A stretch of DNA of 64,000 nucleotides from Pseudomonadota bacterium (GCA_018261895.1 JAGTRT010000030.1:1-64000), one strand, 5' to 3'. Positions 20,001-51,615 are shown, counted from the first letter of the stretch. Program-made: numbers and translations. Notes: generated from the letters alone by a model not told the origin.

Positions 20001-21980
20001 ATGAGTCTGCATGTCTTCGTCGCCATGCCGTTCGGGATCAAGTCTACCGAGGACGGCGGCCCGGTCGATTTCGACCGGATCTATGGCGAGCTGATCCGCC
20101 CGGCCCTGCAGGGCATCGGACTCGAAGTACTGCGCGCCGACGAGGAACAGCGCCCCGGCGACATCCGCGCGGACATGTTCCAGGAACTGCTGATGGCCGA
20201 CCTCGTGGTCGCCGACCTGACGCTCGACAACCCCAATGTCTGGTACGAACTCGGCGTCCGCCACGCTTTGCGCTCGCGCGGCGTCATCCTTATCCAGGGC
20301 CCGCGCGCCGCCCAGCCCTTCGACATCTACACCGACCGCAAGCTGACTTACCACCTGCAGGACGGCGCCCCCGACCCGAACACCCTGGCCGCCGACATCG
20401 CGGCGCTGGCGGCGATGGCCAAGAACACGCTGAACGCCTGGCGCGGGCGCAAGACCAGCCCGGTCTACAGCCTCCTGCCCAACCTCGAAGAGCCCGACTG
20501 GTCGCGCCTGCGCGTCGGCAATGCCCTGGAATACTGGGAAAGCCACGACGAGTGGGCGACCCGCATCGAGGTCGCCCGCAACGCCAACCGCCCCGAGGAC
20601 ATCCTCGTCCTCGCCGACGAAGCCCCGGCCACGCCGCTGCGCGTGCATGCCCACCTCGAAGCCGGCGAGGCCCTGCGCCGGATGCAGCATTTCAATTTCG
20701 CGCTCGAACAATGTGAAATGGCGCTCGACTACGCGCCGGACAACCATGAAGCCGCCCGCCAGCGCGGCGTCTGCCTTCAGCGACTGGGCCGCACGGACGA
20801 AGCGCGGGCCGTTTTCAAGAAGCTCATCGCGGACAACGAGGACGATATCGAAGCCTGGGAACTGCTCGGCCGCCTGGACAAGGAGGAATGGGTCAGCGCC
20901 TGGCGGATCGAGGGCCACACGCCCGAGCAGATGCGCCAGGACGCCGCCTACGAAGACGCCCTGCTGCGCGACACCATCCTCAGCTACAGCCGGGCCTTCC
21001 GGAGCAGTCCCGGCCACTACCTCTCAGGCATCAACGCGGTCATGATGATGCACGTCTACCGCGACCTGACCGGCGACACACGCTACGAGCGCGAAGCCGC
21101 CATCATGGCCGGCGGCGTCGCCTGGGCGGCCTCCTGCGAACGCGATGACGACTGCCGTTTCTGGGCCCTGGCCAACCTGGGCGCCCTGGCCATCATCGAC
21201 AAGGACCCGGCGGCCGTCGGCACCGCCTTCCGCGAAGCCATCGCCCACGCAGACAACGACTGGCTTGCGCTCGAAGCCACCTACAAGCACATCGCCCTGC
21301 TCGCCGTCCTCGGCTTTCGCCCCGACAACGTCACCATGGCCCTCGGCACGCTCGAACGCGCCATGCTGCGCATCAAGCCGCCGGCCAGCCAGCGCCAGCC
21401 GGACAAGGTCTTCCTCTTTTCCGGTCACATGATCGACAGCCCGAGCCGACCGGAACCGCGCTTTCCCGCCGACAAGGAGCCGATCGCGGCGGCGGCCATT
21501 GGCGAACTGCTCGACCGCCTCGGCGCCGGGCCGGACGATCTGGCGATTGCCCAGGGTGCGGCCGGCGGCGACATCCTCTTCGCCGAAGCCTGCCTGGCGC
21601 GTGGCGTACCGTTCCAGATGCTGCTGCCGCTCGAAGAAGCCGATTTCATCGAAGCCTCGATCCTCCCCTCGGCCAACGGCGAAGCCTGGCGCCAGCGCTA
21701 TCTCGCCCTGCGCGACAAGCTCACGCTGCCACCGCGCATCATGCCGGACGAACTCGGCCCCCTGCCGCGCGACCGCGACGGCCACGAAATGAACGCCTTC
21801 GAACGCTGCAACCTGTGGCTGCTCTACAGCGCGCTGACCCAGGGCCTCAAGCGTGTTCGCTTCGTCTGCCTGTGGAACGGCGGCGGTGGCGACGGCGCCG
21901 GGGGCACCGCGCACATGGTCCACGAAGTCAGGCGACGAACCGGCCAGGTCCATTGGCTGGACACGCGCCAGCTCTGGTAA
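20001..21980 (+). CDS. TIR/nucleoside-deoxyribosyltransferase-like N-terminus (TRAFs-binding-type) + TPR + SLOG-like C-terminal Rossmann domain
   Basis: MSLHVFVAMPFGIKS...DLVVADLTLDNPNVWYELGVRHALRSRGVILI; TPR-like helices; C-terminal VFLFSGHMID...LAIAQGAAGGDILFAEACLARGVPFQMLLPLEEADFIEASI. Confidence 0.7.
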   Translation: MSLHVFVAMPFGIKSTEDGGPVDFDRIYGELIRPALQGIGLEVLRADEEQRPGDIRADMFQELLMADLVVADLTLDNPNVWYELGVRHALRSRGVILIQGPRAAQPFDIYTDRKLTYHLQDGAPDPNTLAADIAALAAMAKNTLNAWRGRKTSPVYSLLPNLEEPDWSRLRVGNALEYWESHDEWATRIEVARNANRPEDILVLADEAPATPLRVHAHLEAGEALRRMQHFNFALEQCEMALDYAPDNHEAARQRGVCLQRLGRTDEARAVFKKLIADNEDDIEAWELLGRLDKEEWVSAWRIEGHTPEQMRQDAAYEDALLRDTILSYSRAFRSSPGHYLSGINAVMMMHVYRDLTGDTRYEREAAIMAGGVAWAASCERDDDCRFWALANLGALAIIDKDPAAVGTAFREAIAHADNDWLALEATYKHIALLAVLGFRPDNVTMALGTLERAMLRIKPPASQRQPDKVFLFSGHMIDSPSRPEPRFPADKEPIAAAAIGELLDRLGAGPDDLAIAQGAAGGDILFAEACLARGVPFQMLLPLEEADFIEASILPSANGEAWRQRYLALRDKLTLPPRIMPDELGPLPRDRDGHEMNAFERCNLWLLYSALTQGLKRVRFVCLWNGGGGDGAGGTAHMVHEVRRRTGQVHWLDTRQLW

Positions 21981-22043
21981 TCTGAATGTCATTTTCCTGC
22001 CGCACCCTGTCAAGTCGCACCGTACTCAACAAGGAGACGCACC

Positions 22044-22877
22044 ATGGCCAAGAAAGCACTTTGCATCGGCATCAACAACTACCCCGGAACACACATGGAC
22101 CTGCAGGGCTGCGTCAATGACGCGCAGGACTGGTCGGCCGTCCTCACCGCGCGCGGCTACAAGACCACGCTGCTGCTCGACGACAAGGCGACCAAGGCCG
22201 CCATGGTCGACGCCATGAGCAAGCTGATCGCCAGCGGCAGCAAGGGCGACAGCCTGATCATCACCTTCTCCGGCCACGGCACCTACCAGCCGGACGAGGA
22301 TGGCGACGAGGTCGACGGCCTCGACGAAGCGCTCTGCCCCTACGACCTGCAGACCAAGGGTGCGGCGCTGACCGACGACGAGATCAAGGGCATCTTCGCG
22401 ACGCGCAAGGGCGGCGTCCGCCTCCTGCTCATTTCCGACAGTTGTCACTCCGGCACCGTGACCCGCGCCGCCAAGGCCGACAAGGATGCCGACACCCGGC
22501 CGCGCTTCATGCCGATGGGCAACTGGCTGCCGGCCAACAAGCTGCCGAAGAATTTCGCCGGCAAGGCCGCGCAGACCATGGTCGGGCCGGTCGGCACCTC
22601 GCCGCTGGCCGGAGCCTTCGTCAAGCAGGTCGGCGACCTGCTGCTTTCCGGTTGCAAGGAAGGCCCGAACAACTACAGCTACGACGCCAAGATCGCCGGC
22701 CGCTACAACGGCGCCTTCACCTACTACGCCCTGAAGACGCTCAAGGCCCTCAAGCCCGAGGCGACCTACAACGACTGGTACAAGGCCATCCTCAAGAGCC
22801 TGCCCTCGGCCAGTTATCCGCAGACGCCGCAACTGGTCGGCACCAGCCAGGCCAAGACGCGCAAGGCACTGACCTGA
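22044..22877 (+). CDS. Caspase-family protein (type I metacaspase-like peptidase)
   Basis: Catalytic His in LIITFSGHGTYQPDEDGDEVDGLDEALCPYD; Cys in LLLISDSCHSGT. Confidence 0.93.
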   Translation: MAKKALCIGINNYPGTHMDLQGCVNDAQDWSAVLTARGYKTTLLLDDKATKAAMVDAMSKLIASGSKGDSLIITFSGHGTYQPDEDGDEVDGLDEALCPYDLQTKGAALTDDEIKGIFATRKGGVRLLLISDSCHSGTVTRAAKADKDADTRPRFMPMGNWLPANKLPKNFAGKAAQTMVGPVGTSPLAGAFVKQVGDLLLSGCKEGPNNYSYDAKIAGRYNGAFTYYALKTLKALKPEATYNDWYKAILKSLPSASYPQTPQLVGTSQAKTRKALT

Positions 22878-22891
22878 TTGAAGCAGAACGG

Positions 22892-22916
22892 TCATTCCCG
22901 CGAAAGCGGGGATGAT
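22892..22916. repeat. REP-like hairpin TCATTCCCGCGAAAGCGGGGATGA between the caspase and CHAT genes
   Basis: Near-perfect inverted repeat ATTCCCGC-GAAA-GCGGGGAT in the 80-bp intergenic gap. Confidence 0.6.
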
Positions 22917-22957
22917 CAACCCGAATTGCGCTCTACCCGGCAAGCAGGAGACACAGC

Positions 22958-25900
22958 ATGACAACACGCACGATCCGCATTCGCGGCACCAAAGTCGGTG
23001 CCGGCAGCCGCGGGGCCAGCCAGCCCGGCGGGCCGGAACCGCTCTTTCGACTCGCCCCGGGCAGCGCCCGCGATGGCGCCGGGGACGAGATCGAGGTCAA
23101 GCCCGAGACGGTAGTGCGTGTTGCGCTCGAAAACGGCTTCGTGCTGTGGAGCCGGGCCGACGACCTGACGCGCGAATACGGCAATCCGCCGCCGCGCGGC
23201 CAGAGTGGCGCCTGGGAATTCACCCGCCTGACACCACGCCGGGCGGCCAGCGGCGAACGCGGCGTAGTCGGACTGGCCATCCGCGTTCTTGAATTCTTCA
23301 AAATCGACGCCACCAAGAAAGCCGCCGGCAAGATCGGCAAGGCGCTCGAAGAAAAACAACTGGGCAAGGCGCCCGGCCTCTACCGCGTCGCCCCCGGCAA
23401 GACGCTGAGCCTCACGCCGGTGCCCGGCACCGGCCCGCTGCCGGCGGCCAAAGGCCCCATCCTCGTCTTCATCCACGGCACGGCGTCGAGCACGACAGCC
23501 GGCTACGGCAAACTCTGGGACCCGCGCAACGCCGACGCGCAGAAGCTGCGCGACAGCCTGACGGCGACCTACGGCGATCGCGTCTTCGCCTTCGAGCACC
23601 GGACCCTGACCGAAAGCCCGATCCAGAACGCCATGGCCCTGCTCGAACGGCTGCCCGACGGCGCCGACGTGCATCTCGTCTCGCACTCGCGCGGCGGTCT
23701 GGTCGGCGAACTGCTCTGCCTGTCGGGCTGCGCGAAGCTGGCCGAGGTGCTGACGCCATTTCAAATTGAGCGCTTTTTTGCCGTTGACCGTAGCATTGCC
23801 CCGCAGCTCGGCCTGCCGCCGCTGTCGGCCGACGAGGAAAAGGCGCGCAACGCCGCCTACGCCGCCGACCGCGACCGCCTCGGCCAATTCGTCACGCTGC
23901 TCGGCAAGAAGAAGATCCGCGTCAGCCGCTTTGCCCGCGTCGCCTGCCCGGCGCGCGGCACGACGCTGGCCTCCGGCCGCCTCGACCGCTGGCTGTCGGT
24001 CATCGACTACCTGTCGTCGGCTGCGCTCGGCAGCGGGCTGGTAGTGAGCGGCGCCGTCGATTTCATCCAGGCCGTCGTCGCCGAACGCACCGACCCGCGC
24101 ACCCTGCCCGGCGTCGAGGCGATGATCCCCGGCTCGGCCCTGACCCGGCTGCTCAACAGCATCCCCGAACTGGCCACTGACGCCGACCTCGCCGTCATCG
24201 CCGGCGACATTGAGGGCGGTGCCACGCTGCTCAACACACTGAAGGTGCTTGCCACCGACTGGTTCTACAAGAACGAGCACGACCTCGTCGTCGATACGGC
24301 GTCCATGCTCGGTGGCCTGCCGCGCCTCAACGGCGGCGCCCGCTACCGCAAGGACCAGGGGCCGAAGGTCGATCACTTCCGCTATTTCACCAACGGCCAG
24401 AGCATCAACTGGCTGCGTGCCGCGCTGACCCGGGCCGATCACGAGACCGGCGGTTTCCTGCCCATCGAAGTCAAGGCACCGCGCCCGGCCCGCGAAATCC
24501 GGCGGCGCAGCAGTGGCACCCCGCGCCCCATCGCCGTCGTCCTGCCCGGCACCATGGGCAGCGAACTCAAGGCCGGTGATGAACAGATCTGGCTCAAGTA
24601 CGGCGCACTGTTCGCCGGCGGCCTCGGCAAGCTGCGCATGGGCAAGCCGGACATCGTGCCGGTCGGTCTGGTCGAGGACTTCTATGGCCCGCTCGTCGAC
24701 TTCCTGGCGCGCAGCCACGATGTCGAGGTCTTCCCCTACGACTGGCGCCACTCGATCCGCGATGCGGCTGCCCGTCTGGCCGACACGCTGGCCCCGCTCG
24801 TCGACCGCGCCGAGCGCACGCAACAGCCGCTGCGCCTCGTCGCCCACTCGATGGGCGGCCTCGTCGTCCGCTCGATGATCGCCGACGGCGGCGCCGGCGC
24901 CGCGCTCTGGGAACGCATCAAACGCCTGCCGGGCAGCCGCTTCCTGATGCTCGGCACGCCCAACCTCGGCTCCTACGAAGCGGTGCGCTGGCTGACCGGC
25001 TTCAACCCGACGCAGGCCAAGCTGACGCTGCTCGACATCGGGCACAACACCGACCAGATCATCGGCATCGTCCGCGACTACCCGGGCCTGCTCGAACTGC
25101 TGCCCTTCGCGCCGAAAGACCCGAATTTCACCGAAATGGCCCACTGGCAGGCGATCAGGGAGAGCACCGAAGCGCAATGGGAACTGGCCAACCCGGCCAC
25201 GCTCAAGGAAGCGGCCGTGTCCTGGCAACGCCTGCTCGCCGCGCCGACCGATCCGCTCATGTGCTACGTCGCGGGCTGCCAGCCGGCCACCGTCATCGAC
25301 TACCAGCTGGTGCCCCGCGACGACGATCCGCCGAGCCAGCGCAAGAAACTCGAATTCATCGCCACGGCCGAAGGCGACGGCACGGTGAGCTGGGCTTCCG
25401 GCCGACTGCCCGGCGTGCCGGTGTGGTACGTCGAGGACACCGCGCATGACGCGCTGTGCGCCCAGCCCAAGGCCTTCCCCGGCTATCTCGACCTGCTCGT
25501 CAAGGGCAGCACGACGCTGCTGCCGGCCGCACCGCCGACCCGCGCCCGCGGCGCCGCCGGCGAGGAACGTTTTGTCCTGCCGTCGCTGCCCGTGGCCGAC
25601 AGCATGCCCGGCCCCGACGACATTGCGACATTTGGATTTTCGGGCGGAATTCCGGTTGACCGTGGGAACGGCGAAAAATCCGGCCAGACCATCGAAGTCA
25701 GCATCACCCACGGCAGCCTGGCCTACGCCCGCCACCCGGTCGTCGTCGGCCACTACCAGGGCGACACCATCGTCAGCGCCGAGAAGGCGCTCGACCGGCA
25801 GCTCGGCGGCGCCCTGTCCGGCCGCGCCGATCTCGGCATCTACCCCGGCCCGCTCGGCACCTGCACGACCTTCTTCAACGACAGCCCGACGGCCAAGCCG

Positions 25901-28378
25901 GCCGGCGCCCTCGTCGTCGGCCTCGGCGAAGTCGGCAAGCTCGGCCCCGGCCAGCTCGAAGAAGCCATGCGCAGCGCCCTGCTCGACTTCGCGCTGCGCA
26001 TCGCTCACTGGCCGGATGATCGCTTCGGCGAAGCCAGCCGGCCGCGCTCGGCGGCCATCAGCTGCCTGCTCATCGGCACCGGTGCCGGTGGCGTCCCGGT
26101 CGGCGACGCCATCGAAGCCGTCCTGCGCGCCGCCATCACTGCCAATGCCCGACTGGTCGACAACGAAATGGACGGCCGGGTCGTCATCGACCGCATCGAA
26201 TTCGTCGAGCTCTACGAAGATCTCGCCATCTCGGCCGCCCACGCCCTGCGCAAGGTGGTCGACAACGCCGAGCTGAAGCCCGGCCTGCACTGGGCTGCAG
26301 AGGCCATCGAGGCGGGCCAGGGCGGGCAGTTCCGCCTGCGCGCCGACGAGGCGCCGGAGTGGTGGCACCGCCTCGAAATCGTCGAGGACGAACACAACGA
26401 CCAGACGCTGCGCTTCATCTTCCCGACCGACAAGGCGCGCGCCGAGGAAACCATGGCCACCGGCCAGCTCTCGCTGGCCGACTCCTTCATCGAACTGGCC
26501 AGCCAGGACACCAACCGCAACGCCGAGGCCGCCAGGACGCTGTTCGAGCTGCTGCTCCCCGTCCGCGTCAAGGAACTGTCCGGCCAGCAGGGCAACCTCG
26601 TGGTGCTCGTCGACAAGCGTTCGGCGCGCTACCCGTGGGAACTGCTCGAGGATCGCTGGGGCAGCAGCCCACGTCCGCCGGCCGTCAATGCCGGCATGAT
26701 CCGCCAGTTCAAGACGGCCAATTTCCGCGCCCGGCCGGCCTATGCGCCGAGCGACACGGCGCTCGTCATCGGCAATCCGGACCTCGGCAACTCGCCCGAT
26801 TTCGACGACCTGCCCGGCGCCCGCGACGAGGCGCTGAGCGTCGTCGGCACCCTGGCCAATGCCGGCTTCGATGTCACCGACCGCGTCAATGAACGCACGC
26901 CAGCCATCCTCGAAGCGCTGCACCGCGAGAAATGGCGCATCCTCCATCTGGCCGGGCACGGCGTCCATGAATACCAGTCGGCCCGCATGAGCGCGCCGCG
27001 TTCGGGCATGGTCATCGGCCTCGACACCATCCTGACCCCGGGCGACATCGGCCAGATGCGCTGGGTGCCGGAACTGGTCTTCATCAACTGCTGCCACCTC
27101 GGCCGCGTCGATGGCCACGGCAAGACCGAGCCCGGCGTCCTCGCCGCCAACCTCGCCGAGCAGTTCATCCTGATGGGCGTCAAGGCCGTCATCGCCGCTG
27201 GCTGGGCTGTCGACGATTCCGCCGGCAAAGCTTTTGGCGAAGGCTTCTACCGGCGCATGGTGGCCGGCGAATTTTTCGGCGAAGCGGTCCGCGCCGCCCG
27301 CGAAGACATTTTCACCGGCTGCGAGAACGTGAACACCTGGGGCGCCTACCAGTGCTACGGCGATCCGAACTACCGCCTGTCGCGCGACAGCGTGCAACGC
27401 CACAGCGAAGGCCTGCCCTACACGACGCCGCACGAACTGGTCGTCGATCTCGACAACCTGGCCTGCGGCCTGCGCAACGGTGACGATGCCTCGGATGTCG
27501 CCGAGCGCATCGAACGCCGCCTGCGGCGCATTCCAGGCACGCAAGCGGCTTGGACGAAGCGCGCCGATGTCGCCGCCGCGCTGGGCTTTGCCTGGGGCGA
27601 AGCGGGCGAATGGGAAAAAAGCATCGCCGAGCTGCGCGTCGCCATCGAAGCCGAAGGCGGGCAATGCAGCGTGCGCGTCATCGAACAGCTGGCCAACTAC
27701 GAAGTCCGCCTGGCCGGCAGCCGCTGGCTCGCGGCCGACGACCGCAATGAAACGCTGCGGGCAGAACTGCGCGCCAGCATCGAACAGGCCATCTCGCGCC
27801 TGGCTGCGCTCTGCGTCAACGGCGAAACAAGCGAACGCCTGAGCCTTCTCGGCGGCGCCTACAAGCGCCTGGCGCTGATCGAAGCGGCCGACGGCAACCG
27901 CCTGGAAGCCCTGGTCAACATGGCCGAGCACTACGGCCGGGCCTACGCGCTGGGTGGCAAGCCCTACGCCTTCACCAACTGGGCCAATGCCGCGCTGCTC
28001 GTCCGCCGCTGCTACCCGGATCAGCCGACCGACCAGCCACCGCTGCGTGGCCTCGACAGCTTGCGCGAAAAGGTCGCCCGCCTGCACCGCGCCCTCGACA
28101 AGAGCAACGCGAGCACGCCGAACTTCTGGGACAGCGCCAGCCTGGCCGACCTCGACCTCGTGCTGGCGATGGCCGACAGCCTGCCCGGCAGCCGGCGGCG
28201 CAAGGCCTCGCCGGCGCCCGACGCCGCCCGCGAAACCTATCGCCAGGCCATCCTGCGCGGGGCCAGCGTGCGCGAGCGCTCGTCGATCACCGAACACCTC
28301 GATTTCCTGCGCGCCCACTACCCCGACGACGACCCGATGGCCGGACTCATTGACCGGATCAAGGAGGACCTCGCATGA
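22958..28378 (+). CDS. Giant multidomain protein: two alpha/beta hydrolases, macro/M17-N-like region, CHAT protease, TPR-like tail
   Basis: Hydrolase 1: ILVFIHGTASSTTAGYG / VHLVSHSRGGLVGELL. Hydrolase 2: AVVLPGTMGSELK / LRLVAHSMGGLVVRSM. CHAT: WRILHLAGHGVHE / LVFINCCHLGRVDG. Confidence 0.85.
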   Translation: MTTRTIRIRGTKVGAGSRGASQPGGPEPLFRLAPGSARDGAGDEIEVKPETVVRVALENGFVLWSRADDLTREYGNPPPRGQSGAWEFTRLTPRRAASGERGVVGLAIRVLEFFKIDATKKAAGKIGKALEEKQLGKAPGLYRVAPGKTLSLTPVPGTGPLPAAKGPILVFIHGTASSTTAGYGKLWDPRNADAQKLRDSLTATYGDRVFAFEHRTLTESPIQNAMALLERLPDGADVHLVSHSRGGLVGELLCLSGCAKLAEVLTPFQIERFFAVDRSIAPQLGLPPLSADEEKARNAAYAADRDRLGQFVTLLGKKKIRVSRFARVACPARGTTLASGRLDRWLSVIDYLSSAALGSGLVVSGAVDFIQAVVAERTDPRTLPGVEAMIPGSALTRLLNSIPELATDADLAVIAGDIEGGATLLNTLKVLATDWFYKNEHDLVVDTASMLGGLPRLNGGARYRKDQGPKVDHFRYFTNGQSINWLRAALTRADHETGGFLPIEVKAPRPAREIRRRSSGTPRPIAVVLPGTMGSELKAGDEQIWLKYGALFAGGLGKLRMGKPDIVPVGLVEDFYGPLVDFLARSHDVEVFPYDWRHSIRDAAARLADTLAPLVDRAERTQQPLRLVAHSMGGLVVRSMIADGGAGAALWERIKRLPGSRFLMLGTPNLGSYEAVRWLTGFNPTQAKLTLLDIGHNTDQIIGIVRDYPGLLELLPFAPKDPNFTEMAHWQAIRESTEAQWELANPATLKEAAVSWQRLLAAPTDPLMCYVAGCQPATVIDYQLVPRDDDPPSQRKKLEFIATAEGDGTVSWASGRLPGVPVWYVEDTAHDALCAQPKAFPGYLDLLVKGSTTLLPAAPPTRARGAAGEERFVLPSLPVADSMPGPDDIATFGFSGGIPVDRGNGEKSGQTIEVSITHGSLAYARHPVVVGHYQGDTIVSAEKALDRQLGGALSGRADLGIYPGPLGTCTTFFNDSPTAKPAGALVVGLGEVGKLGPGQLEEAMRSALLDFALRIAHWPDDRFGEASRPRSAAISCLLIGTGAGGVPVGDAIEAVLRAAITANARLVDNEMDGRVVIDRIEFVELYEDLAISAAHALRKVVDNAELKPGLHWAAEAIEAGQGGQFRLRADEAPEWWHRLEIVEDEHNDQTLRFIFPTDKARAEETMATGQLSLADSFIELASQDTNRNAEAARTLFELLLPVRVKELSGQQGNLVVLVDKRSARYPWELLEDRWGSSPRPPAVNAGMIRQFKTANFRARPAYAPSDTALVIGNPDLGNSPDFDDLPGARDEALSVVGTLANAGFDVTDRVNERTPAILEALHREKWRILHLAGHGVHEYQSARMSAPRSGMVIGLDTILTPGDIGQMRWVPELVFINCCHLGRVDGHGKTEPGVLAANLAEQFILMGVKAVIAAGWAVDDSAGKAFGEGFYRRMVAGEFFGEAVRAAREDIFTGCENVNTWGAYQCYGDPNYRLSRDSVQRHSEGLPYTTPHELVVDLDNLACGLRNGDDASDVAERIERRLRRIPGTQAAWTKRADVAAALGFAWGEAGEWEKSIAELRVAIEAEGGQCSVRVIEQLANYEVRLAGSRWLAADDRNETLRAELRASIEQAISRLAALCVNGETSERLSLLGGAYKRLALIEAADGNRLEALVNMAEHYGRAYALGGKPYAFTNWANAALLVRRCYPDQPTDQPPLRGLDSLREKVARLHRALDKSNASTPNFWDSASLADLDLVLAMADSLPGSRRRKASPAPDAARETYRQAILRGASVRERSSITEHLDFLRAHYPDDDPMAGLIDRIKEDLA
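23758..23792 (+). repeat. Intragenic TTGACCGT repeat (GCCG subtype) in the CHAT gene
   Basis: ATTTCAAATTGAGCGCTTTTTTGCCGTTGACCGTA; encodes PFQIERFFAVDRS. Confidence 0.65.
25630..25664 (+). repeat. Second intragenic TTGACCGT repeat in the CHAT gene
   Basis: ATTTGGATTTTCGGGCGGAATTCCGGTTGACCGTG; encodes TFGFSGGIPVDRG. Confidence 0.65.
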
Positions 28379-29208
28379 CCACCCGCAAAACACCCACCAA
28401 GCCAGCGACCACCGAGCCCCCCGCAGCAAAGCCGCGCGGCCGGCGCCGGAGCGCAACGCCCCCGGTGACCACACAGCCCGAGGTCGTGAGCCAGACGCCG
28501 GCCAAGACGGCCAAAAAACCGGCTGCCGCGAAAAAGGCAACGGCAACGAAGGCTGCCAAGCCGCGCACCACGCCGCCCGCCCCCGCTGTCACTCCCCCGG
28601 CTGCGGGCAAAGCCCGCGGCGCCTCGCGTTCGGCCAATCCCACGGTCGACCGGAAAAATGAGCCAATTTCGCAATTCACCCTGGCCAACATCCGCCACGA
28701 CACGCGCATTTCGCCCAACTTCCTGATCTATGAACTGACCCGATCCGAGCTCGCCGACCGCCGTGGCATCCCCAACCATTTTGCCTCCGACCAGGAGCTG
28801 CGCGCCGCCATCCATCTCGCCCGCGAAGTACTGCAGCCGATCCGCGACAAGTTCGGCAGCTTCACGCCGAACAGCGTTTTCCGCGGCCACCCGCTCGAAC
28901 GCGCCCTCAAGAACAAGCCAGCGAGCTGGCTCAGCACCAGCCAGCATTCGCGCGGCGAAGCCTGCGACATCGAGATCGTCGGCATGAGCACGCTGGACCT
29001 GGCCAACTGGGCGAAGGACAACCTCAAGGATTTCGACCAGATCATCTGCGAATGCTACGACCCGACCAAAGGCCCCAATTCCGGCTGGGTGCACATCTCG
29101 CTCAAGGCCCCGGGCACGGGCGAAAACCGCCGACAACTGCTGAGCTACATCGCCAGCCACGGCAAGATGGTCTACGTGCCGGGCCTGCGCGCCACCGCGA
29201 CCGCCTGA
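28375..29208 (+). CDS. M15-family (D-Ala-D-Ala carboxypeptidase-like) peptidase with Lys/Pro/Ala-rich N-terminus
   Basis: Zn-ligand pattern STSQHSRGEACDIEIVG ... GPNSGWVHISL; overlaps the CHAT stop by 4 bp (ATGA). Confidence 0.75.
   Translation: MTTRKTPTKPATTEPPAAKPRGRRRSATPPVTTQPEVVSQTPAKTAKKPAAAKKATATKAAKPRTTPPAPAVTPPAAGKARGASRSANPTVDRKNEPISQFTLANIRHDTRISPNFLIYELTRSELADRRGIPNHFASDQELRAAIHLAREVLQPIRDKFGSFTPNSVFRGHPLERALKNKPASWLSTSQHSRGEACDIEIVGMSTLDLANWAKDNLKDFDQIICECYDPTKGPNSGWVHISLKAPGTGENRRQLLSYIASHGKMVYVPGLRATATA
28641..28676 (-). repeat. Intragenic TTGACCGT-repeat variant (GTCGACCGT) in the M15 gene
   Basis: Plus strand CACGGTCGACCGGAAAAATGAGCCAATTTCGCAATT; encodes PTVDRKNEPISQF. Confidence 0.5.
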
Positions 29209-29211
29209 CGC

Positions 29212-30777
29212 ATGGCCTCGGGCAAGATTCTGACCCTGCTGGTCATCGCCACGCTGCTGGCGCTGATCGGGGCCTGGATCGTCGCGCGCACTTATCGCAA
29301 GCGGATGCAAGGGCTCATGCAGGCGCCGCTTGCCGCGTCCGCCCCCGGCGATGTGGTCGTAACCGGCAGACCACCTGCCCGTCCTGCCCCCCCGACAAAC
29401 TGGCGACTGGAGGATAACCAGAAGGCGCACCATCGCCTGCTGTGGACCTTCGCCGCGCTGACCCTGCCCATCTCGTTGACGCGGACGGTGCTGACCCAAA
29501 TCATGGCCGACGGCCCGCTCAGCATCACGATCATTGCCGCCCTCGGTACCGCGTATGCGTGGCCGATATTGCCCGTTCTTGCCGTAATCGGCCGCTGGTC
29601 TCGTCCGCGTTTTATCCTTGCCATGCTCATTTGGTGCGCTTTCGCCATAGTGCTCCTTTCCTGGCGCACCAACGAGAATGTCAGCGTGAGCATGGTCACC
29701 ACCTGGGTACTCTTCGACACGGCCATGCCGCTGTTCGTCGTCACGGCGATCTGTCTGGGTGGCGCCACACGGGCCATCAGCCCATGGCTGGCGCCCCTGC
29801 TTGCAGTGTTCATCGGCTCATCGATACTGGGCCTGGACTTTCTCCAGACGCTGTTCGACACACAAAGCCCGCTCGTCGGCTGGCTAGTCCAGTGGTTCAG
29901 TCCCGTATCCGCCATGACCCTGTTTGCCATCCTGCCCTGGCTGATAGTGTGGTGGCCGGTTCGCGCCCTCGGTCGCTGGCTCGGCCAAGCCTACCGGGAA
30001 CGGCGAATCTCCGAACTGTTCTATCTCTATACCGCCGTATGGGCGATCGCAGTGGCGGGCCCCACGCTCGGCGACATCGACGGATCGGGCTGGAAATCCC
30101 TGATCAATCTCCTGCCGCTGCTGTGGATTCCGCTCGGCGCATGGCTCATGAAACGCCATGTCATTCCATCCATGAGCAATTCGCCGCCAACCTTGCTCGT
30201 GCTGCGCGTATTCAAGCAAGACGCAAACGTCCAGGCCATTTTCGACCGGGTCATCGAACGCTGGCGCCTGAGCGGCAATACCGTGCTGATCGCGGGCACC
30301 GATCTCGCCTATCGCACCATCGACGCCGACGACGTATTCACCTTCCTGGACGGTCGCCTAGGCGAGCGTTTTGTCGCCCGTCCATCCGACATCGATGCGC
30401 GCATAGCCCAGATGGAATTCCAGCCCGACACCGAGGGACGCTACCGGATCAACGAATGCTATTGCCACGACACCACCTGGCAGCAGGCACTCGACAGGCT
30501 GGTCGGCATCAGCGACGTGGTGCTCATGGACCTGCGCAATTTCAAGGCGAAAAACGCCGGCTGCGTCCATGAACTCGGCGTCCTGTCCAAGGCGCCCAAT
30601 CTCGCCCGCGTCGTCATCCTGACCAACCCGGACACCGAGCGCGAGGCCGCCCAGGCAGCCGCTGCCGGCGCGCCGGACGGCCGTTTCGTCTGGCTCGACG
30701 AAAGCAGCCGTAACAGCCTCAAACCGGCCGACGTCCTGGCCGCCCTTTTCCCGACCGCAACCGCTGCCACGCGCTAG
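29212..30777 (+). CDS. Multi-pass membrane protein with C-terminal TIR-like cytosolic domain
   Basis: Several hydrophobic helices in the first ~300 aa; C-terminal LLVLRVFKQDANVQAIFDRVIERWRLSGNTVLIAGTDLAYRTI...ISDVVLMDLRNFKAKNAGCVHELGVLSKAPNLARVVILTN. Confidence 0.6.
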   Translation: MASGKILTLLVIATLLALIGAWIVARTYRKRMQGLMQAPLAASAPGDVVVTGRPPARPAPPTNWRLEDNQKAHHRLLWTFAALTLPISLTRTVLTQIMADGPLSITIIAALGTAYAWPILPVLAVIGRWSRPRFILAMLIWCAFAIVLLSWRTNENVSVSMVTTWVLFDTAMPLFVVTAICLGGATRAISPWLAPLLAVFIGSSILGLDFLQTLFDTQSPLVGWLVQWFSPVSAMTLFAILPWLIVWWPVRALGRWLGQAYRERRISELFYLYTAVWAIAVAGPTLGDIDGSGWKSLINLLPLLWIPLGAWLMKRHVIPSMSNSPPTLLVLRVFKQDANVQAIFDRVIERWRLSGNTVLIAGTDLAYRTIDADDVFTFLDGRLGERFVARPSDIDARIAQMEFQPDTEGRYRINECYCHDTTWQQALDRLVGISDVVLMDLRNFKAKNAGCVHELGVLSKAPNLARVVILTNPDTEREAAQAAAAGAPDGRFVWLDESSRNSLKPADVLAALFPTATAATR

Positions 30778-30797
30778 CCCACTACAAGGAGAACCCC

Positions 30798-31976
30798 GTG
30801 AACCAACAAGTCCTGAAGCGCATCAAAGATCCTGGCCAGAAGAAAATCCTCGCCTGCGACGGTGGCGGCATTCTCGGTCTGATGAGCGTCGAAATCCTGG
30901 CCAAACTCGAAGCCGACCTGCGCACCCGTCTGCAGAAGCCCAACCTGGTCCTCGCCGACTATTTCGATTTCGTTTGCGGCACGAGCACCGGCGCCATCAT
31001 CGCCAGCTGCATTTCGACCGGCATGTCGATGGATGTGATCCGCAGCTTCTATACCGCCAGCGGCCAGCAGATGTTCGACAAGGCATCCGTGCTCAAGCGC
31101 CTCAAATACAGCTACAACGACGAACCGCTGGCGAAGAAACTGCGCGAGGAACTCGACAAGGCCCTGCACCACACGGCCAGCGCCGCCGAGCCCAACGCCA
31201 CGCTCGGCGACGCCGGGCTGCGCACGCTGCTCATGATGGTCATGCGCAACGTCAACACCGATTCGCCGTGGCCGGTCAGCAACAACCCGCTGGCCAAATA
31301 CAACGACCGGACCCGCCCCGACTGCAATCTCAAGCTGCCGCTCTGGCAACTGGTCCGCGCCAGTACCGCCGCGCCCACCTTCTTCCCGCCGGAAGTCGTG
31401 ACCTTCGGCGAAGGCACCGAAAAACGCTACGAATTCATCTTCGTCGATGGCGGCGTGACGACCTACAACAACCCGGCCTTCCTCGCCTTCCAGATGGTCA
31501 CCGCGGCGCCCTACAAGATCAGCTGGCCGACCGGCGACGACAAGCTGCTCATCGTCTCCATCGGCACCGGCAGCACGGCCAAGGTTCGCCCCGATCTCGA
31601 TGCCGACGACCTGTGGCTGCTCGACAACGCCAAGAACCTGCCCGGCGCCCTCATGAACGCCGCCTCGGCCGGTTGGGACATGGCCTGCCGGGTCATTGGC
31701 GACTGCCGCTTCGGTCCGAAGATCGACCGCGAAATCGACGACCTCGTGCCAACCGACGTCATCCCGGTCACGTCGAGCGTACCCAAACAGTTCGCCTACG
31801 TCCGCTACGATCCCGATGTCTCCCAGGCCGGGCTGGATGCGCTGGGTCTCTCGACCATCAAGGCAGAAAACGTGCAGGTCATGGATTCGGTCAAGCACAT
31901 GAAGGATATCCAGCAGGTCGGCGCGGCCTACGCCGCGCACAACGTCAGCCTCAAGCACCTGCGGGGCTTCGCATGA
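30798..31976 (+). CDS. Patatin-like phospholipase
   Basis: KILACDGGGILGLMSVEIL oxyanion loop; FVCGTSTGAIIA nucleophile elbow; FVDGGVTTYNNPA catalytic Asp. Confidence 0.93.
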   Translation: MNQQVLKRIKDPGQKKILACDGGGILGLMSVEILAKLEADLRTRLQKPNLVLADYFDFVCGTSTGAIIASCISTGMSMDVIRSFYTASGQQMFDKASVLKRLKYSYNDEPLAKKLREELDKALHHTASAAEPNATLGDAGLRTLLMMVMRNVNTDSPWPVSNNPLAKYNDRTRPDCNLKLPLWQLVRASTAAPTFFPPEVVTFGEGTEKRYEFIFVDGGVTTYNNPAFLAFQMVTAAPYKISWPTGDDKLLIVSIGTGSTAKVRPDLDADDLWLLDNAKNLPGALMNAASAGWDMACRVIGDCRFGPKIDREIDDLVPTDVIPVTSSVPKQFAYVRYDPDVSQAGLDALGLSTIKAENVQVMDSVKHMKDIQQVGAAYAAHNVSLKHLRGFA

Positions 31977-33307
31977 GCACCTGCTTCGTCATCCAGGGCT
32001 TCGGCAAGAAGACCGACTACACGGACGGCCGTATCCTCGACCTCGATGCCTCCTACGCCGTCATCAAGGACGCCATCGAATCTGCCGGCCTGCAGGCCAT
32101 CCGCGCCGACGAAATCCAGCATTCCGCGGTGATCGACGTCCCGATGTACGAAATGCTGCTCAACGCCGATGTCGTCGTCGCCGACCTGTCCACCTACAAC
32201 GTCAATGCCGCCTACGAACTCGGCGTGCGCTATGCCCTCCGCCCCCGCACCACCATCGTCGTTGCCGAGGAAGGCTTCAAGAATCCCTTCGACATCGGCC
32301 ACATCGCCATCCGCCGCTACAAGCATCTCGGCGAGGATATCGGCGCCAAGGAGGCGGTGCGTTTCAAGAACGAACTGAAGGCGGCCATCGCCGAGATACT
32401 CGCCTCGAATCGGGCTGACAGTCCGGTCTACACCTTCCTGCCTGGACTCATCCCTCCGGAACTCGCCGTGGCCAAGAATGCCCCTCCCCCACCGCAGGCC
32501 AGGGGAGGCATCCCCGCACCCGAGGTGCTCGATCAGGCTGACGCTGTCGATGACCTTCTCGCCGCAGCCCCCGAACCGGTCGCCACCCCCAAGGCCATGC
32601 TCGACGAAGCGCTGGCCCGAATCAACCCGCCACCAGGCCAGCCGAGCGATTTCGACGGCGCGCGCGGGCTGCTTCTCAAGGTTTTGCAACAGCGCCCCAA
32701 CGACCCCTTCGTGCTCCAGCAACTGGTCGTCGCCACCTACAAGTCGAAACAGCCGGACCCGCAGAACGCCCTGCTCGAAGCGCGCCGCATCATGGAGAAG
32801 TCGCTCAATCCGGCGTCGACCAACGATCCCGAAACACTGGGCCTGTGGGGCGCGATCCACAAGCGCCTGTGGGACATCAACGCCAACCCGACCGACCTCA
32901 ACGCCGCAGTCGACGGCTACGAACGGGGCTTCTCGCTGCGCCGGGACTGGTACAACGGCATCAACTACGCCTTCCTGCTCGACGTGCGTGCCGTGGAATG
33001 GCTGAAGGCCGGCAATCGCGACGAAGGCATCGCCGACTCCGTCCTCGCCCGGCGCATCCGGAACGAAGTCGGACGCCTGGCCCAGGCGGCGGCGGAAGAC
33101 AAGGAAGCCGACCCGCAAAAGCGCTTCTGGGCCATCGCCACCTTATGGGAAGCAGCGCTCGGTCGCGGCGACACCGCTGAAACCGCGCGCTGGGAGCAAG
33201 CCGCGCAGGCACTCGCCGTGCCGCAATGGATGCAGGACAGCCGACTGGAACAGGGACGGAAACTGCAGGCAGTGCAACAAGCCTTCGCGACGCTATCGGC
33301 CGGCTAG
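31973..33307 (+). CDS. TIR/nucleoside-deoxyribosyltransferase-like (TRAFs-binding-type) protein with TPR-like C-terminus
   Basis: MSTCFVIQGFGKKTDYTDGRILDLDASYAVIKDAIESAGLQAIRADE...NADVVVADLSTYNVNAAYELGVRYALRPRTTIVVAEE; ATGA overlap with the patatin stop; the track ORF starts too far upstream. Confidence 0.72.
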   Translation: MSTCFVIQGFGKKTDYTDGRILDLDASYAVIKDAIESAGLQAIRADEIQHSAVIDVPMYEMLLNADVVVADLSTYNVNAAYELGVRYALRPRTTIVVAEEGFKNPFDIGHIAIRRYKHLGEDIGAKEAVRFKNELKAAIAEILASNRADSPVYTFLPGLIPPELAVAKNAPPPPQARGGIPAPEVLDQADAVDDLLAAAPEPVATPKAMLDEALARINPPPGQPSDFDGARGLLLKVLQQRPNDPFVLQQLVVATYKSKQPDPQNALLEARRIMEKSLNPASTNDPETLGLWGAIHKRLWDINANPTDLNAAVDGYERGFSLRRDWYNGINYAFLLDVRAVEWLKAGNRDEGIADSVLARRIRNEVGRLAQAAAEDKEADPQKRFWAIATLWEAALGRGDTAETARWEQAAQALAVPQWMQDSRLEQGRKLQAVQQAFATLSAG

Positions 33308-46651: not shown

Positions 46652-46716
46652 TAACGCTTTGTCGTGATGTGTGACATATTTGCACAGCGGTCAGCCACAA
46701 AACGATGAAAGCGTTA
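46652..46716. promoter_or_regulatory. Widely spaced perfect 9-bp inverted repeat upstream of the first cyanophycin synthetase paralog
   Basis: TAACGCTTT (46652-46660) and AAAGCGTTA (46708-46716). Confidence 0.35.
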
Positions 46717-46772
46717 ATAATGCTGAAACCGAACATTCATCACCGCAGGCCAACGGAGCCAAAGCCAAGAGC

Positions 46773-49025
46773 ATGAAGAACAAGGACATCATTTTCCGGG
46801 ACACGATTTCACTGCGTGGCCCCAGCATCTGGACCTACCCGCCGGTCATCGAGACCTGGATCGACATCGGCGAACTGGAGGACTACCCCTCCGACAAGAT
46901 TCCCGGCCTCTACGAGCGCCTCGAAAGCTGGCTGCCCGGCCTCATCGAACATCGCTGCAACTACGACGTACGCGGCGGCTTCCTGCAGCGCCTCAAGGAA
47001 GGCACATGGCCCGGCCACATCCTCGAGCACGTTGTCCTCGAACTGATGACCCTGGCCGGTCTGCCCGACGGCTTCGGCCGCACCCGCGAAACGACGACGC
47101 GCGGCGTCTACAAGCTCGTCGTCAGCAATTTCCATGAGGAATGCACCCGCCTGGCGCTGGATATCGGCCGCGAACTGCTCCTCGCCGCCATTAAGGACGA
47201 GCCCTTCGACATCGCCGAGGCGATCAAGCCCCTGCGCCGCCGGGTGGACCGCAAATACCTCGGCCCATCCACGGCTGCCATCGTCAATGCCGCCGAAGCC
47301 CGCAAGATTCCCCACATCCGCCTGCTCGAAGACGGCAACCTCGTCCAGCTCGGCTACGGTGCCGCCATGCGCCGCATCTGGACGGCCGAAACCGACCAGA
47401 CCAGCGCCATCGCCGAAACCATCTCACGCGACAAGGACCTGACCAAGGAGCTGATTTCCTCGGTCGGCGTACCGGTCCCCGAAGGCCGCGAGGTCGACGA
47501 TGCCGACGACGCCTGCGATGCGGCCGAAGACATCGGCTACCCCGTTGTCGTCAAACCGACCGACGGCAATCACGGCCGTGGCGTCTTCATCGACCTCATG
47601 AATGCCGACGACGTCCGCAAGGCCTACGCCATCGCCGTCGAGGAAGGCTCCGGCGTTCTCGTCGAGCGCTCCATCCAGGGCATCGAACATCGCCTGCTCG
47701 TCGTCGGCGGCAAGCTCGTCGCGGCCAATCGCAGCGACCTCATCACCGTCACCGGCGACGGCAAGCATACCGTCCAGGAACTCATCGACAGACAGGTCAA
47801 CACCGACCCGCGCCGCGGCAATACCGAGCTGCACCCGCTGTCCATCATCAAGATCGATACCGCCGCGAACATCGAACTCGAACGCCAGGGGCTCAAAGCC
47901 GATGCCGTACCGGCCAAGGGCCGCGAGGTACTGATCCAGCGCAACGCCAATCACGCCTTTGACTGCACCGACGAAGTCCATCCCGAAACCGCCCAGGTCG
48001 CCGCACTGGCCGCCCGCGTCGTCGGCCTCGACATCGCCGGCATTGACCTCGTCTGCCAGGATGTCTCGAAGCCGCTGGCCGAACAGGGCGGCGCCATCGT
48101 TGAAGTCAACGCCGGCCCCAGCCTGCTCATGCACATCAAGCCGGGCATCGGCAAGCCGCGCCCGGTCGGCCAGGCCATCGTCGACAACCTGTTCGCCCAG
48201 AGCGAAAGCGGCCGCGTGCCACTGGTCGGCGTCACCGGCACCCACGGCAAGAACGCCGTCGCCAAGATGGTCGCCCATCTCATCTACCTCTCCGGCCAAC
48301 AGGGCGGCCTCGCCTGCAAGGACGGCATCTACCTCGGCCGCCGCCATGTCCAGAAAACCGATGCGGCCAATTGGGAGGGCGGTCGCCGTCTTCTGCTCAA
48401 TCGCTCGATCCAGGCTGCGGTCATCGAAAACGGGGCGCCGGTCATCCTCGGCGAAGGCCTGGCCTACGACCGCTGCTCGGTCGGCGTCGTCACCAATATC
48501 GTCTCGGCCGACGAAGACCTGTCGCGCTGGGATGTCCAGCCCACCGGCGGCGAGTACTACACGACGCCGCGTTCGATCTACCGGACGCAAGTCGATGTCG
48601 TGCTGCCCAGCGGCCACGCCGTGCTCAACGCCGAAGACGAACTGGTCGCCGATTTTGCCGAACTGTGCGATGGCGAAGTGATCTTCTTCGCCTGCGACCC
48701 GACCAACCCGACCCTGGCCGCCCACATTGCGGCCGGCAAGCGGGGCGTCACCGTCGTCGACAATCGCATCGTGCTGCGTTCGGGCAACGAGGAAACCCGC
48801 CTCAGCCGCCTGGTCGACGCGCCCTACATCGGCAAGGCCAAGCAAGCCAAAAACATCGCCAATGTGCTGGCAGGCATCGCCGCTGGCTGGGCCATGGGAT
48901 TGAGCCAGGAAGTGATGACGACGGGCCTCAAGACCTTCGGTCTCGAACTGGCCGATCCCGCGTCGCTGATCCTGCAGCCAGCCAAGAAGTCGCAAACCAA
49001 GAAGCCGGCCACCGCCCGGAAATAA
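46773..49025 (+). CDS. Cyanophycin synthetase-like protein (CphA' paralog)
   Basis: ATP-grasp region YPVVVKPTDGNHGRGVFIDL; Mur-ligase-like C-terminal half with GTHGKNAVAKM. Confidence 0.88.
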   Translation: MKNKDIIFRDTISLRGPSIWTYPPVIETWIDIGELEDYPSDKIPGLYERLESWLPGLIEHRCNYDVRGGFLQRLKEGTWPGHILEHVVLELMTLAGLPDGFGRTRETTTRGVYKLVVSNFHEECTRLALDIGRELLLAAIKDEPFDIAEAIKPLRRRVDRKYLGPSTAAIVNAAEARKIPHIRLLEDGNLVQLGYGAAMRRIWTAETDQTSAIAETISRDKDLTKELISSVGVPVPEGREVDDADDACDAAEDIGYPVVVKPTDGNHGRGVFIDLMNADDVRKAYAIAVEEGSGVLVERSIQGIEHRLLVVGGKLVAANRSDLITVTGDGKHTVQELIDRQVNTDPRRGNTELHPLSIIKIDTAANIELERQGLKADAVPAKGREVLIQRNANHAFDCTDEVHPETAQVAALAARVVGLDIAGIDLVCQDVSKPLAEQGGAIVEVNAGPSLLMHIKPGIGKPRPVGQAIVDNLFAQSESGRVPLVGVTGTHGKNAVAKMVAHLIYLSGQQGGLACKDGIYLGRRHVQKTDAANWEGGRRLLLNRSIQAAVIENGAPVILGEGLAYDRCSVGVVTNIVSADEDLSRWDVQPTGGEYYTTPRSIYRTQVDVVLPSGHAVLNAEDELVADFAELCDGEVIFFACDPTNPTLAAHIAAGKRGVTVVDNRIVLRSGNEETRLSRLVDAPYIGKAKQAKNIANVLAGIAAGWAMGLSQEVMTTGLKTFGLELADPASLILQPAKKSQTKKPATARK

Positions 49026-49041
49026 CGAGGAATAACGCGTC

Positions 49042-51615
49042 ATGGACGTTTCCCGCATTCGTGCCCTGCGCGGCCCCAATCTGTGGAGCCGGCACACCGC
49101 CATTCAGGCCATCGTCACCTGCGAAGGTGCCGAGGTCGCCATCTCTGACCTGCCCGGCTTCGAAGCCCGACTGCGCGAGCGCTTTCCGGAACTCGGTGAC
49201 CTGATCCCCTCGGATCACCTCGACACCGTGTCGATGGCCCACGCACTCGAATTCGCCGCCCTCGGCCTGCAAGCCCAGGCCGGCTGCCCGGTCACCTTCA
49301 GCCGTACGGCCCAGACCGTCGATCAGGGCGTCTATCAGGTCATCGTCGAATACACCGAGGAAGACGTTGGCCGTCTGGCCTTCGAGCGCGCCGAGCAGCT
49401 TTGCCTGGCCGCCCTCAACGACACGCCCTTCGATCTTGACGGCACGCTCAAGGAATTGCGCGACCTCGATGAAGACATCCGCCTTGGCCCCTCGACCGGC
49501 GCCATCGTCTCGGCCGCCGTGGCCCGCGGCATTCCGTATCGCCGCCTGACGCAGGGCAGCCTCGTCCAGTTCGGCTGGGGCAGCAAGCAGAAACGCATCC
49601 AGGCTGCCGAGACCAGCCTGACTAGCGCCATCGGCGAAGCCATCGCGCAGGACAAGGAACTGACCAAAAAATTGCTGCACGCCTCCGGCGTCGCCGTGCC
49701 CATCGGCCGTCCGGTCGAGGACGAGGACGATGCCTGGAAGGCCGCGCTGGAAATCGGCCTGCCGGTCGTCGTCAAGCCGCAGGACGGCAACCAGGGCAAG
49801 GGCATCTCGGTCAACCTGACCACCGAGGAACAGGTCCGCCGGGCCTATCAGGTCGCAGTCAGCTTCTTCGACGACATCATGGTCGAGAAATTCCTTTCCG
49901 GCCACGACTGGCGCCTGCTGGTCATCGGCGACAAGCTGATCGCCGCCGCCCGCCGCGACCCGCCGCTGGTCATCGGCGACGGCACGCATACCGTGCGCGA
50001 ACTGGTCAACATCGTGAACAGCGATCCGCGCCGCTCGGATGGCCATGCCACCTCGCTGACCAAGATCCGCTTCGACGAAATCGCCCTCGCCCGCCTTGAA
50101 GAGCAGGGCTACAGCGCTGACTCCGTTCCCGGCCGCGGCGTTCGCGTCGTCCTGCGCAACAACGCCAACCTGTCGACCGGCGGCACCGCCACCGACGTCA
50201 CCGACGACGTGCATCCCGAACTGGCCGCGGCCGCCGTCGCTGCCGCGCAAACCGTCGGACTCGACATCTGCGGCATCGACGTTGTTTGCGACACCATGCA
50301 CAAGCCGCTCGAAGAGCAAGGCGGCGGCATCGTCGAATGCAATGCCGCGCCCGGCCTGCGCATGCACCTCGACCCGTCCTTCGGCAAGGGCCGTGCGGTC
50401 GGCGAAGCCATCGTCGGCATGATGTTCCCGGACGGCGACAACGCGCGCATCCCGGTCGTCGCCATCGCCGGCACCAACGGCAAGACAACGACCAGCCGCC
50501 TGATCGGCCGCATTTTCGAATCCAACAACCTGCGCGTCGGCATGACCAGCACCGATGGCATCTACATCGAAGGTCGGCGCATCGACACCGGCGACTGCTC
50601 AGGTCCGCGCAGCGCGCGCAATGTCCTGATGCACCCGGACGTCGACGCGGCCGTCTTCGAAACGGCGCGGGGCGGCGTGCTGCGTGAAGGCCTCGGCTTC
50701 GACATGTGCGACGTGGCGGTCATCACCAACATCGGCATCGGCGACCACCTCGGTCTCAACTACATCACAACCGTAGATGAACTGGCCGTGGTCAAGCGCG
50801 TCATCGTCGAAAACGTCGCACCGAACGGCACGGCGGTCCTCAATGCCGCCGACCCGGTGGTTGCGGCCATGGCGCACCACTGCCACGGCGACATCATTTT
50901 CTTCGCCCGTGACCGCATGAACCCGGTGCTCGCCACCCATCGCGCCCAGGGCAAGCGTGTTGTCCATGTCGAGCGCGACGCCATCGTGTGCAGCGAAGGC
51001 CGCAAGAAACACCGCATCCCGCTGGCCAACATCCCGCTTACCCGCAACGGCACCATCGGCTTCCAGGTCGAAAATGCCATGGCCGCCATTGCCACCGGCT
51101 GGGCGTTGGCCTACGAGTGGTCGATCATTGAAAGGGCCTTGGCCGGTTTCGTCAGCGATGCTGCCACGGCGCCCGGTCGCTTCAACGTCTTCGACTACAA
51201 GGGCGCGACGCTGATCGCCGATTACGGCCACAACCCGGACGCCATCCAGGCGCTGGTCGGTGCCATCGAGAACATGCCGGCGGTGCGCCGTTCGGTGGTG
51301 ATCAGCGGTGCCGGCGACCGACGCGACGACGATATCCGCCAACAGACCGAAATCCTTGGCGAAGCTTTCGACGAGGTGATCCTGTACCAGGACGCCTGCC
51401 AGCGCGGGCGCGAGGATGGCGAAGTCATTGGCCTGCTACGCGACGGTCTGAGCAACGCCAGCCGGACCAAGCACATCGATGCGATCACGGGCGAATTCAT
51501 CGCCATCGACACGGCACTGAGCCGCCTGCGTCCGGGTGACCTCTGCCTGATCCTGATCGACCAGGTTGAGGAAGCCCTGGCCCACATCGCCAAGCGGATC
51601 GCCGAAGCCAAATAG
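49042..51615 (+). CDS. cphA: Cyanophycin synthetase
   Basis: LPVVVKPQDGNQGKGISVNL ATP-grasp; AGTNGKTTTSRLIG Mur-ligase P-loop. Confidence 0.95.
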   Translation: MDVSRIRALRGPNLWSRHTAIQAIVTCEGAEVAISDLPGFEARLRERFPELGDLIPSDHLDTVSMAHALEFAALGLQAQAGCPVTFSRTAQTVDQGVYQVIVEYTEEDVGRLAFERAEQLCLAALNDTPFDLDGTLKELRDLDEDIRLGPSTGAIVSAAVARGIPYRRLTQGSLVQFGWGSKQKRIQAAETSLTSAIGEAIAQDKELTKKLLHASGVAVPIGRPVEDEDDAWKAALEIGLPVVVKPQDGNQGKGISVNLTTEEQVRRAYQVAVSFFDDIMVEKFLSGHDWRLLVIGDKLIAAARRDPPLVIGDGTHTVRELVNIVNSDPRRSDGHATSLTKIRFDEIALARLEEQGYSADSVPGRGVRVVLRNNANLSTGGTATDVTDDVHPELAAAAVAAAQTVGLDICGIDVVCDTMHKPLEEQGGGIVECNAAPGLRMHLDPSFGKGRAVGEAIVGMMFPDGDNARIPVVAIAGTNGKTTTSRLIGRIFESNNLRVGMTSTDGIYIEGRRIDTGDCSGPRSARNVLMHPDVDAAVFETARGGVLREGLGFDMCDVAVITNIGIGDHLGLNYITTVDELAVVKRVIVENVAPNGTAVLNAADPVVAAMAHHCHGDIIFFARDRMNPVLATHRAQGKRVVHVERDAIVCSEGRKKHRIPLANIPLTRNGTIGFQVENAMAAIATGWALAYEWSIIERALAGFVSDAATAPGRFNVFDYKGATLIADYGHNPDAIQALVGAIENMPAVRRSVVISGAGDRRDDDIRQQTEILGEAFDEVILYQDACQRGREDGEVIGLLRDGLSNASRTKHIDAITGEFIAIDTALSRLRPGDLCLILIDQVEEALAHIAKRIAEAK

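Follow-up and report, generated by a model that had tools for sequence, protein, structure and literature searches.

The seven genes A to G of the window (the whole stretch of 64,000 nucleotides that was analysed) constitute an authentic, conserved and mobile conflict or suicide unit organised around one large sensor-protease protein. We propose, with a probability of about one half, that they encode a Thoeris-like system in which an NAD-derived signal is relayed to proteases and triggers cell suicide. If so, a pathway that could be ordered genetically, from NAD-type signalling through a sensor of the ADP-ribose type to lytic enzymes and two caspase-fold proteases, would be encoded by one compact operon.

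Gene organisation and domain composition

The seven open reading frames run in one direction and show codon-position GC of the coding type, in agreement with an earlier note on this DNA, which had described seven co-directional genes (Table 1). Its claim of translational coupling was also borne out, with every junction it gave being exact: C/D and F/G overlap by 4 bp (at 28375 and 31973), and the remaining genes are separated by 63 bp (A-B), 80 bp (B-C), 3 bp (D-E, 29209-29211) and 20 bp (E-F, 30778-30797). In relatives, the 4-bp C-D overlap recurs in most loci, D-E spacings are mostly 3-19 bp and the F-G spacing is -4 in every relative measured, so that the coupling is conserved rather than due to chance. 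The cassette is flanked on the left by genes for XseA, SodB, an alpha/beta-hydrolase, a CxxCxxCC protein and an NMT1-histidine kinase, and on the right by genes for a GGDEF-EAL protein, a MauG-type peroxidase, UbiC and a pseudouridine synthase. The other genes scanned in the window have housekeeping or common transport and signalling functions, among them two cyanophycin-synthetase-type genes side by side (46671-51612), one of which lacks the Mur ligase domains at its end in the Pfam scan. The source assembly comprises 3.3 Mb in 93 contigs and is 85% complete.

Table 1. Genes and domains of the cassette and the interval that holds it, in window coordinates (res, residues)
Feature	Position	Strand	Remarks
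Insertion interval sodB-ubiC, variable, holds cassette in the window's clade	15417-37326	.	Comparison of empty and occupied sites
Gene A	20001-21980	+	
A, TIR-like domain	res 1-150	+	Glu83 in NPNVWYELG; PADLOC TIR-effector profile 2e-6
A, TPR-S	res 231-349 = 20691-21047	+	Pfam PF20308, 56.5 bits
A, SLOG-like C-terminal domain	res ~462-658 = 21384-21974	+	YAcAr SLOG match in homologues
Gene B, caspase-like C14 peptidase	22044-22877	+	Catalytic His78 and Cys134; Pfam PF00656 1e-25
Gene C	22958-28378	+	1806 aa
C domain 1, alpha/beta-hydrolase DUF7379	23435-24457	+	Pfam PF24096; nucleophile Ser244 in HSRGG
C domain 2, LCAT/PGAP1-like alpha/beta-hydrolase	24515-25537	+	Pfam PF02450 2e-7; nucleophile Ser631 in HSMGG
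C domain 3, macro domain (ADP-ribose-type ligand fold)	25670-26302	+	Foldseek; loop IGTGAGG conserved
C domain 4, CHAT protease	26525-27364	+	Pfam PF12770 3e-28; His1334, Cys1378/Cys1379
C domain 5, TPR-S	27611-27985	+	Pfam PF20308, 47.3 bits; ASK1 fold match
Gene D, Lys/Ala/Pro-rich N-terminus and M15-type metallopeptidase	28375-29208	+	Ligands His191, Asp198, His240
Gene E, at least 6 membrane spans (res 1-317) and cytoplasmic Rossmann/TIR-like domain (res 324-500)	29212-30777	+	18-orthologue alignment, AF2, hydropathy
Gene F, patatin phospholipase, accessory	30798-31976	+	Pfam PF01734 4e-23; PADLOC CBASS phospholipase profile 1e-41
Gene G, TIR-like domain, accessory, paired with F	31973-33307	+	Glu82; PADLOC TIR-effector profile 7e-8
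G, TPR-S	32648-32980	+	Pfam PF20308, 81.0 bits

Protein C is the hub of the cassette, a single sensor-protease protein (macro-CHAT-TPR-S) preceded by a hydrolase and an LCAT-type hydrolase. In an AF2 model of residues 880-1806 (pLDDT 79.9, built with 22 sequences), Foldseek matched the macro region to the macro domain TTHA0132 with a probability of 1.00 and a TM score of 0.74 of the target, and to macroH2A1.1 and MACROD2, also with a probability of 1.00; by sequence, Pfam gave a weak M17_N match for this region. The fold matches of the CHAT region include the SAVED-CHAT filament 8tl0, and the TPR-S region matches the central regulatory region of ASK1 (5ulm). The HSRGG, HSMGG, GHG and CCH motifs do not vary among 22 C homologues with identities down to about 31%. 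In B, whose closest solved structure is GSU0716 (3bij, 7e-31), His78 and Cys134 are likewise invariant in 17 sequences. This invariance of the active-site motifs is strong evidence that B and C work as enzymes. In one relative (L060:5839-14007), a single open frame of 2723 codons joins C to the following E-like gene with D absent, either a fusion or an assembly artefact.

TPR-S is found in A, C and G, each above the PF20308 cut-off of 27.6 bits, and G additionally matches MAP3K_TRAF_bd (Pfam, 8e-7). Three of 16 homologues match the YAcAr SLOG family (best 2e-4) in the C-terminal part of A (about 200 residues), and in many loci this part is a separate gene beside C. D falls just under the cut-off of Pfam M15_3 (2e-4; 21.7 against 23.2 bits), with all three metal ligands kept in its orthologues. 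F scores 110 bits against the NCBIfam CBASS lipase, under the cut-off of 200. The C-terminal domain of E would be TIR-like, judging from its topology and from the motif DVVLMDL...HELG, which parallels DLVVADL...YELG in A and G; Glu454 is invariant in the 18 aligned orthologues, and a fold search with this domain (AF2 model of E, pLDDT 77.7) gave no confident match. Canonical Pfam TIR did not exceed its cut-off in A, E or G (best E-value 0.04, in two members), and the TIR-like parts matched only nucleotide N-hydrolases in the PDB, at an E-value of about 0.5. PDB sequence searches with profiles of A, C, D and E returned nothing useful, and C, D and E had no match in the PADLOC profile search. 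All domains listed in the earlier note (caspase, CHAT, patatin, two hydrolases, M15 and three TIR-like domains) are present, M15_3 scoring below its cut-off. That inventory had missed the sensors (TPR-S in A, C and G, the macro region of C and the SLOG-like C-terminus of A) and the multi-span membrane nature of E.

Conservation and movement of the cassette

Strong matches to gene C were found in 24 of the 61 genomes of the genus studied, the window's own included, and at 26 loci on named contigs. The named relatives belong to Azonexus, Dechloromonas and other Rhodocyclaceae MAGs, with Thauera and Rhodoferax more distant. The genes do stay together, as a check of neighbourhood conservation proposed earlier showed, and the cassette has the look of a single transcription unit: B-C-D-E is the core, kept in about 20 loci, gene order is conserved, and A is frequent, either whole or as its SLOG-like part. 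About ten loci retain nothing of A but that part, and L006 lacks E, so that neither TIR-like protein is universally needed. F and G form an accessory pair present in five loci (the window, L004, L006, L012 and L018). The emphasis of the earlier note on multiple effectors therefore does not hold, the hub being one sensor-protease protein and F-G an accessory. L065 (2502-13674) is a mosaic swap within the cassette, in which a 31% homologue stands in for C and a protein with LysM and M15_4 for D; A (74%), B (72%) and E (51%) are kept, and so is the functional set. A distant cassette (L080:3124-6108) carries a second caspase-domain protein, 995 aa long and encoded on the other strand, whose gene separates the caspase gene from that for the SLOG-like protein.

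The sodB-ubiC interval was compared across relatives. In L195 and L194, sodB and ubiC are adjacent with about 50 bp between them, representing the empty site; the same space holds only A-B-C-D-F-G in L006 and is filled by other genes in L193. The empty sites and the cassette-only locus show that the cassette is one insertable unit. The five-domain C also occurs on plasmids of Paracoccus, Ensifer, Azotobacter and Burkholderia. On a Rhizobium leguminosarum plasmid (L205:4026-17916), a macro-CHAT-TPR-S protein without the hydrolases is flanked by two TIR-nSTAND1-WD40 proteins, with a SLOG-like gene, and thus keeps NLR-like company. A phage or viral origin was rejected, since no relative of C was present among 50,697 phage records or in an IMG/VR scan. 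The vertical-looking retention at one locus within a sub-clade could be read as a sign of a non-lethal, regulatory or housekeeping role in proteolysis and lipid turnover. We consider this very unlikely in view of the patchy distribution (24/61 genomes), the movement as a unit, the presence on plasmids and the effector-like set of enzymes.

Known conflict systems and a proposed mechanism

TPR-S/TIR/caspase/CHAT conflict systems are an already described kind (Pfam PF20308), and the cassette stands near known systems. TPR-S or ASK-type prokaryotic conflict systems were reportedly set out by Burroughs and Aravind in 2020. The cassette resembles them in carrying TPR-S in three proteins together with TIR-like, caspase, CHAT and SLOG-like parts, and in the fold of C that is like the ASK1 regulatory region; parts of the cassette are related to the animal ASK1 signalosome. 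To our knowledge, a macro-CHAT hub with two hydrolases, an M15 peptidase, a membrane-spanning TIR-like protein such as E and a link to an injection system has not been described.

The cassette shares with SAVED-CHAT/PCaspase effectors of type III CRISPR a ligand-sensing CHAT protein and a separate caspase, suggesting a cascade, but has macro and TPR-S domains in place of SAVED and no Cas10 or CRISPR parts. Identity with that system was rejected, as no SAVED or Cas10 match was found in the cassette or its flanks. The patatin F is reminiscent of CBASS with the CapV phospholipase, matching the corresponding PADLOC profile; in contrast to CBASS, F is optional and the cassette has no cyclase, no CD-NTase being found among the seven proteins or in the ten genes around them, for which reason membership in CBASS was rejected. 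A gasdermin system was likewise discarded, with no gasdermin family match in the seven proteins (Pfam, PADLOC).

In type IV Thoeris, a TIR-made signal (N7-cADPR) activates a caspase-like protease, and in type II Thoeris such a signal (His-ADPR) acts on the TM-macro effector ThsA (PMC12847820). Like type IV, the cassette combines TIR-like proteins with a caspase-like protease in a single operon; it differs in having no canonical TIR and in adding the macro-CHAT hub, the M15 peptidase and the lipases. The likeness to type II lies in the TIR-like proteins, in a membrane component and in a macro domain that probably acts as the ADP-ribose-type sensor, whereas in the cassette the macro domain is fused to CHAT instead of membrane spans, which sit on the TIR-like E. 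PADLOC matched no Thoeris system among the seven proteins, nor did they match any other named system; its TIR-effector profile did match A and G. The earlier description of the cassette as a candidate undescribed system is supported to that extent, but needs to be tempered by its closeness to the described TPR-S/TIR/caspase/CHAT and Thoeris systems.

Alongside the observed gene content, domains, folds, catalytic residues, linkage and movement as a unit, we propose the following hypothetical course of trigger, NAD+ chemistry, signal, activation and death, in which (i) upon a trigger, which may be a phage or internal stress, the TIR-like A, G and membrane-bound E would act on NAD+, or on a nucleotide related to it, to yield a signal of the ADP-ribose type; (ii) the signal would be sensed by the macro domain of C, with the aid of TPR-S and of the SLOG-like C-terminus of A; (iii) sensing would switch on the CHAT protease of C; (iv) CHAT and the caspase B would then cleave cellular or partner proteins; (v) membrane lipids and the cell wall would come under attack from the patatin F, the putative M15 peptidase D and both hydrolases of C, leading to cell death or lysis. 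Macro domains bind ADP-ribose derivatives, and CHAT and caspase proteases can form cascades. By analogy with their families, the TIR-like domains may make or use NAD-derived signals, and the M15 peptidase and lipases are plausible lytic executors. This suicide cascade is supported by macro, CHAT and ASK1-like TPR folds within one protein and TPR-S in three; by the conserved Glu of the TIR-like motifs, the SLOG-like domain and the kept active sites of B, C and D; and by the conserved order and 4-bp couplings, the distant versions of C on plasmids and the Thoeris precedents. Against it stand the missing Pfam TIR above cut-off, the loci with reduced A or without E, the unmatched fold of E and the housekeeping flanks.

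A plain antiphage abortive infection, in which a phage is the trigger and early death stops its spread, is compatible with the suicide cascade and possible, if somewhat improbable. The domain vocabulary is common to CBASS, Thoeris and TPR-S systems, the cassette is mobile and patchy, and restriction genes occur as neighbours (a type III methylase in L057, a type I restriction enzyme in L016 and a type I restriction-modification system by the Azotobacter C). However, no defence island surrounds the cassette in the window, where the flanks are housekeeping genes, and no phage-sensing component was identified. As regards the antiphage association raised in the earlier note, nothing found shows phage defence; in the genomes, the strongest partner found was no phage-defence island but a contractile injection system.

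Association with contractile injection systems

Many relatives have, in divergent orientation to A or B, genes for Pvc16 (PF14065), sheath (PF04984/PF17482) and tail-tube (PF06841) proteins, which head complete injection-system operons. None of the seven cassette genes itself encodes a structural component (sheath, tube, Pvc16, spike or baseplate). Two injection-system lineages adjoin cassettes, type 2 divergently and type 1 on the same strand in L065, where the cassette lies directly upstream of the operon; the window's genome has a complete operon of type 1, a lineage other than that of the divergent operons, on contig C14. Among the 61 genomes, 17 have C and full-length Pvc16, 7 C only, 2 Pvc16 only and 35 neither, i.e. 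full-length Pvc16 (E-value below 1e-20, a cut-off against short Pvc16 that was chosen after the table had been seen) accompanies C in 17/24 genomes and occurs in 2/37 without it (Fisher p=8e-8). C and Pvc16 lie within about 10 kb of each other in 11 of the 17 genomes with both. With a tree of XseA from 55 genomes, a Pagel-type test of correlated evolution gave LR=21.0 (p=3e-4). After removal of the physically linked tips, the test gave LR=9.2 (p=0.057) and the counts 6/13 versus 2/37 (p=0.002), in a sample in which several genomes are incomplete MAGs and the tree is that of one gene.

Within the genus we take the link to be real, though not proven functional, given the islands that accessory genes share, the incomplete MAGs, the one-gene tree and the post hoc cut-off. 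A general link beyond the genus was rejected, as no cassette was found near 40 outside injection-system loci with home-made profiles whose positive controls worked. We found no literature joining injection systems with caspase, CHAT, patatin or TIR, and the main text of Geller 2021 mentions neither caspase nor CHAT, patatin or TIR; the co-occurrence is new here.

In this genus, the cassette probably also serves, or is served by, the injection system. That this partnership is its actual role, the cassette lysing the producer on cue to free cytoplasmic contractile particles or executing a death that involves the injection system, is rather doubtful. Beyond the co-occurrence, the physical proximity and the two lineages involved, it would fit the peptidoglycan-type M15 peptidase, its LysM-M15 version beside the injection system in L065, the complete operon in the window's genome and the two further C-positive genomes that retain a solo sheath gene of a lost operon. 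The weakening of the tree-based test without linked genomes, four complete C-positive genomes with no sheath and the 40 outside loci argue against it, and both elements could be passengers of the same island types. If the link is true, it would be a candidate explanation for the exit of such particles from Gram-negative cells, or for their tie to programmed death. The more specific idea that a TIR/macro-gated CHAT-caspase cascade controls programmed lysis of producing cells, with particles released or discharged by an apoptosis-like decision, seems unlikely; it would mean that bacteria couple a death pathway to a weapon resembling a phage tail.

Injection systems are known to carry toxins of the TIR and hydrolase types as cargo (PMC11297309) and the cassette adjoins such operons, so its proteins might instead be loaded and delivered to other cells. 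This is highly improbable: E is a polytopic membrane protein, C is 1806 aa long and contains sensor domains, the genes are rich in sensors and conserved instead of being diversified at a toxin end, and the cassette occurs without any injection system. Moreover, the type-1 operon of the window's genome has cargo genes of its own, two adjacent genes that by eye resemble the DUF4157 type (L086:13849-17597).

The seven C-only genomes comprise G002 and G057 with a solo sheath gene, G053 with a phage-size sheath only, and the four without any sheath. The solo genes of G002 and G057 mark sites that formerly held an operon or that hold one in relatives; the surroundings of the G002 gene match those of the complete operon in the window's genome. 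Solo sheath genes of about 490-640 aa with open frames, the other genes of the operon being absent, lie at L197:15600-17519 (G002), L051 (3397-4900 region) and L026 (7254-8738). A short Pvc16-like family of about 151 aa stands apart from the injection-system Pvc16, with homologues in G002, G013, G035, G044, G047, G052, G053, G055, G056 and G060 and a copy with an in-frame TGA in the window's genome (G000:C48:91994-92440).
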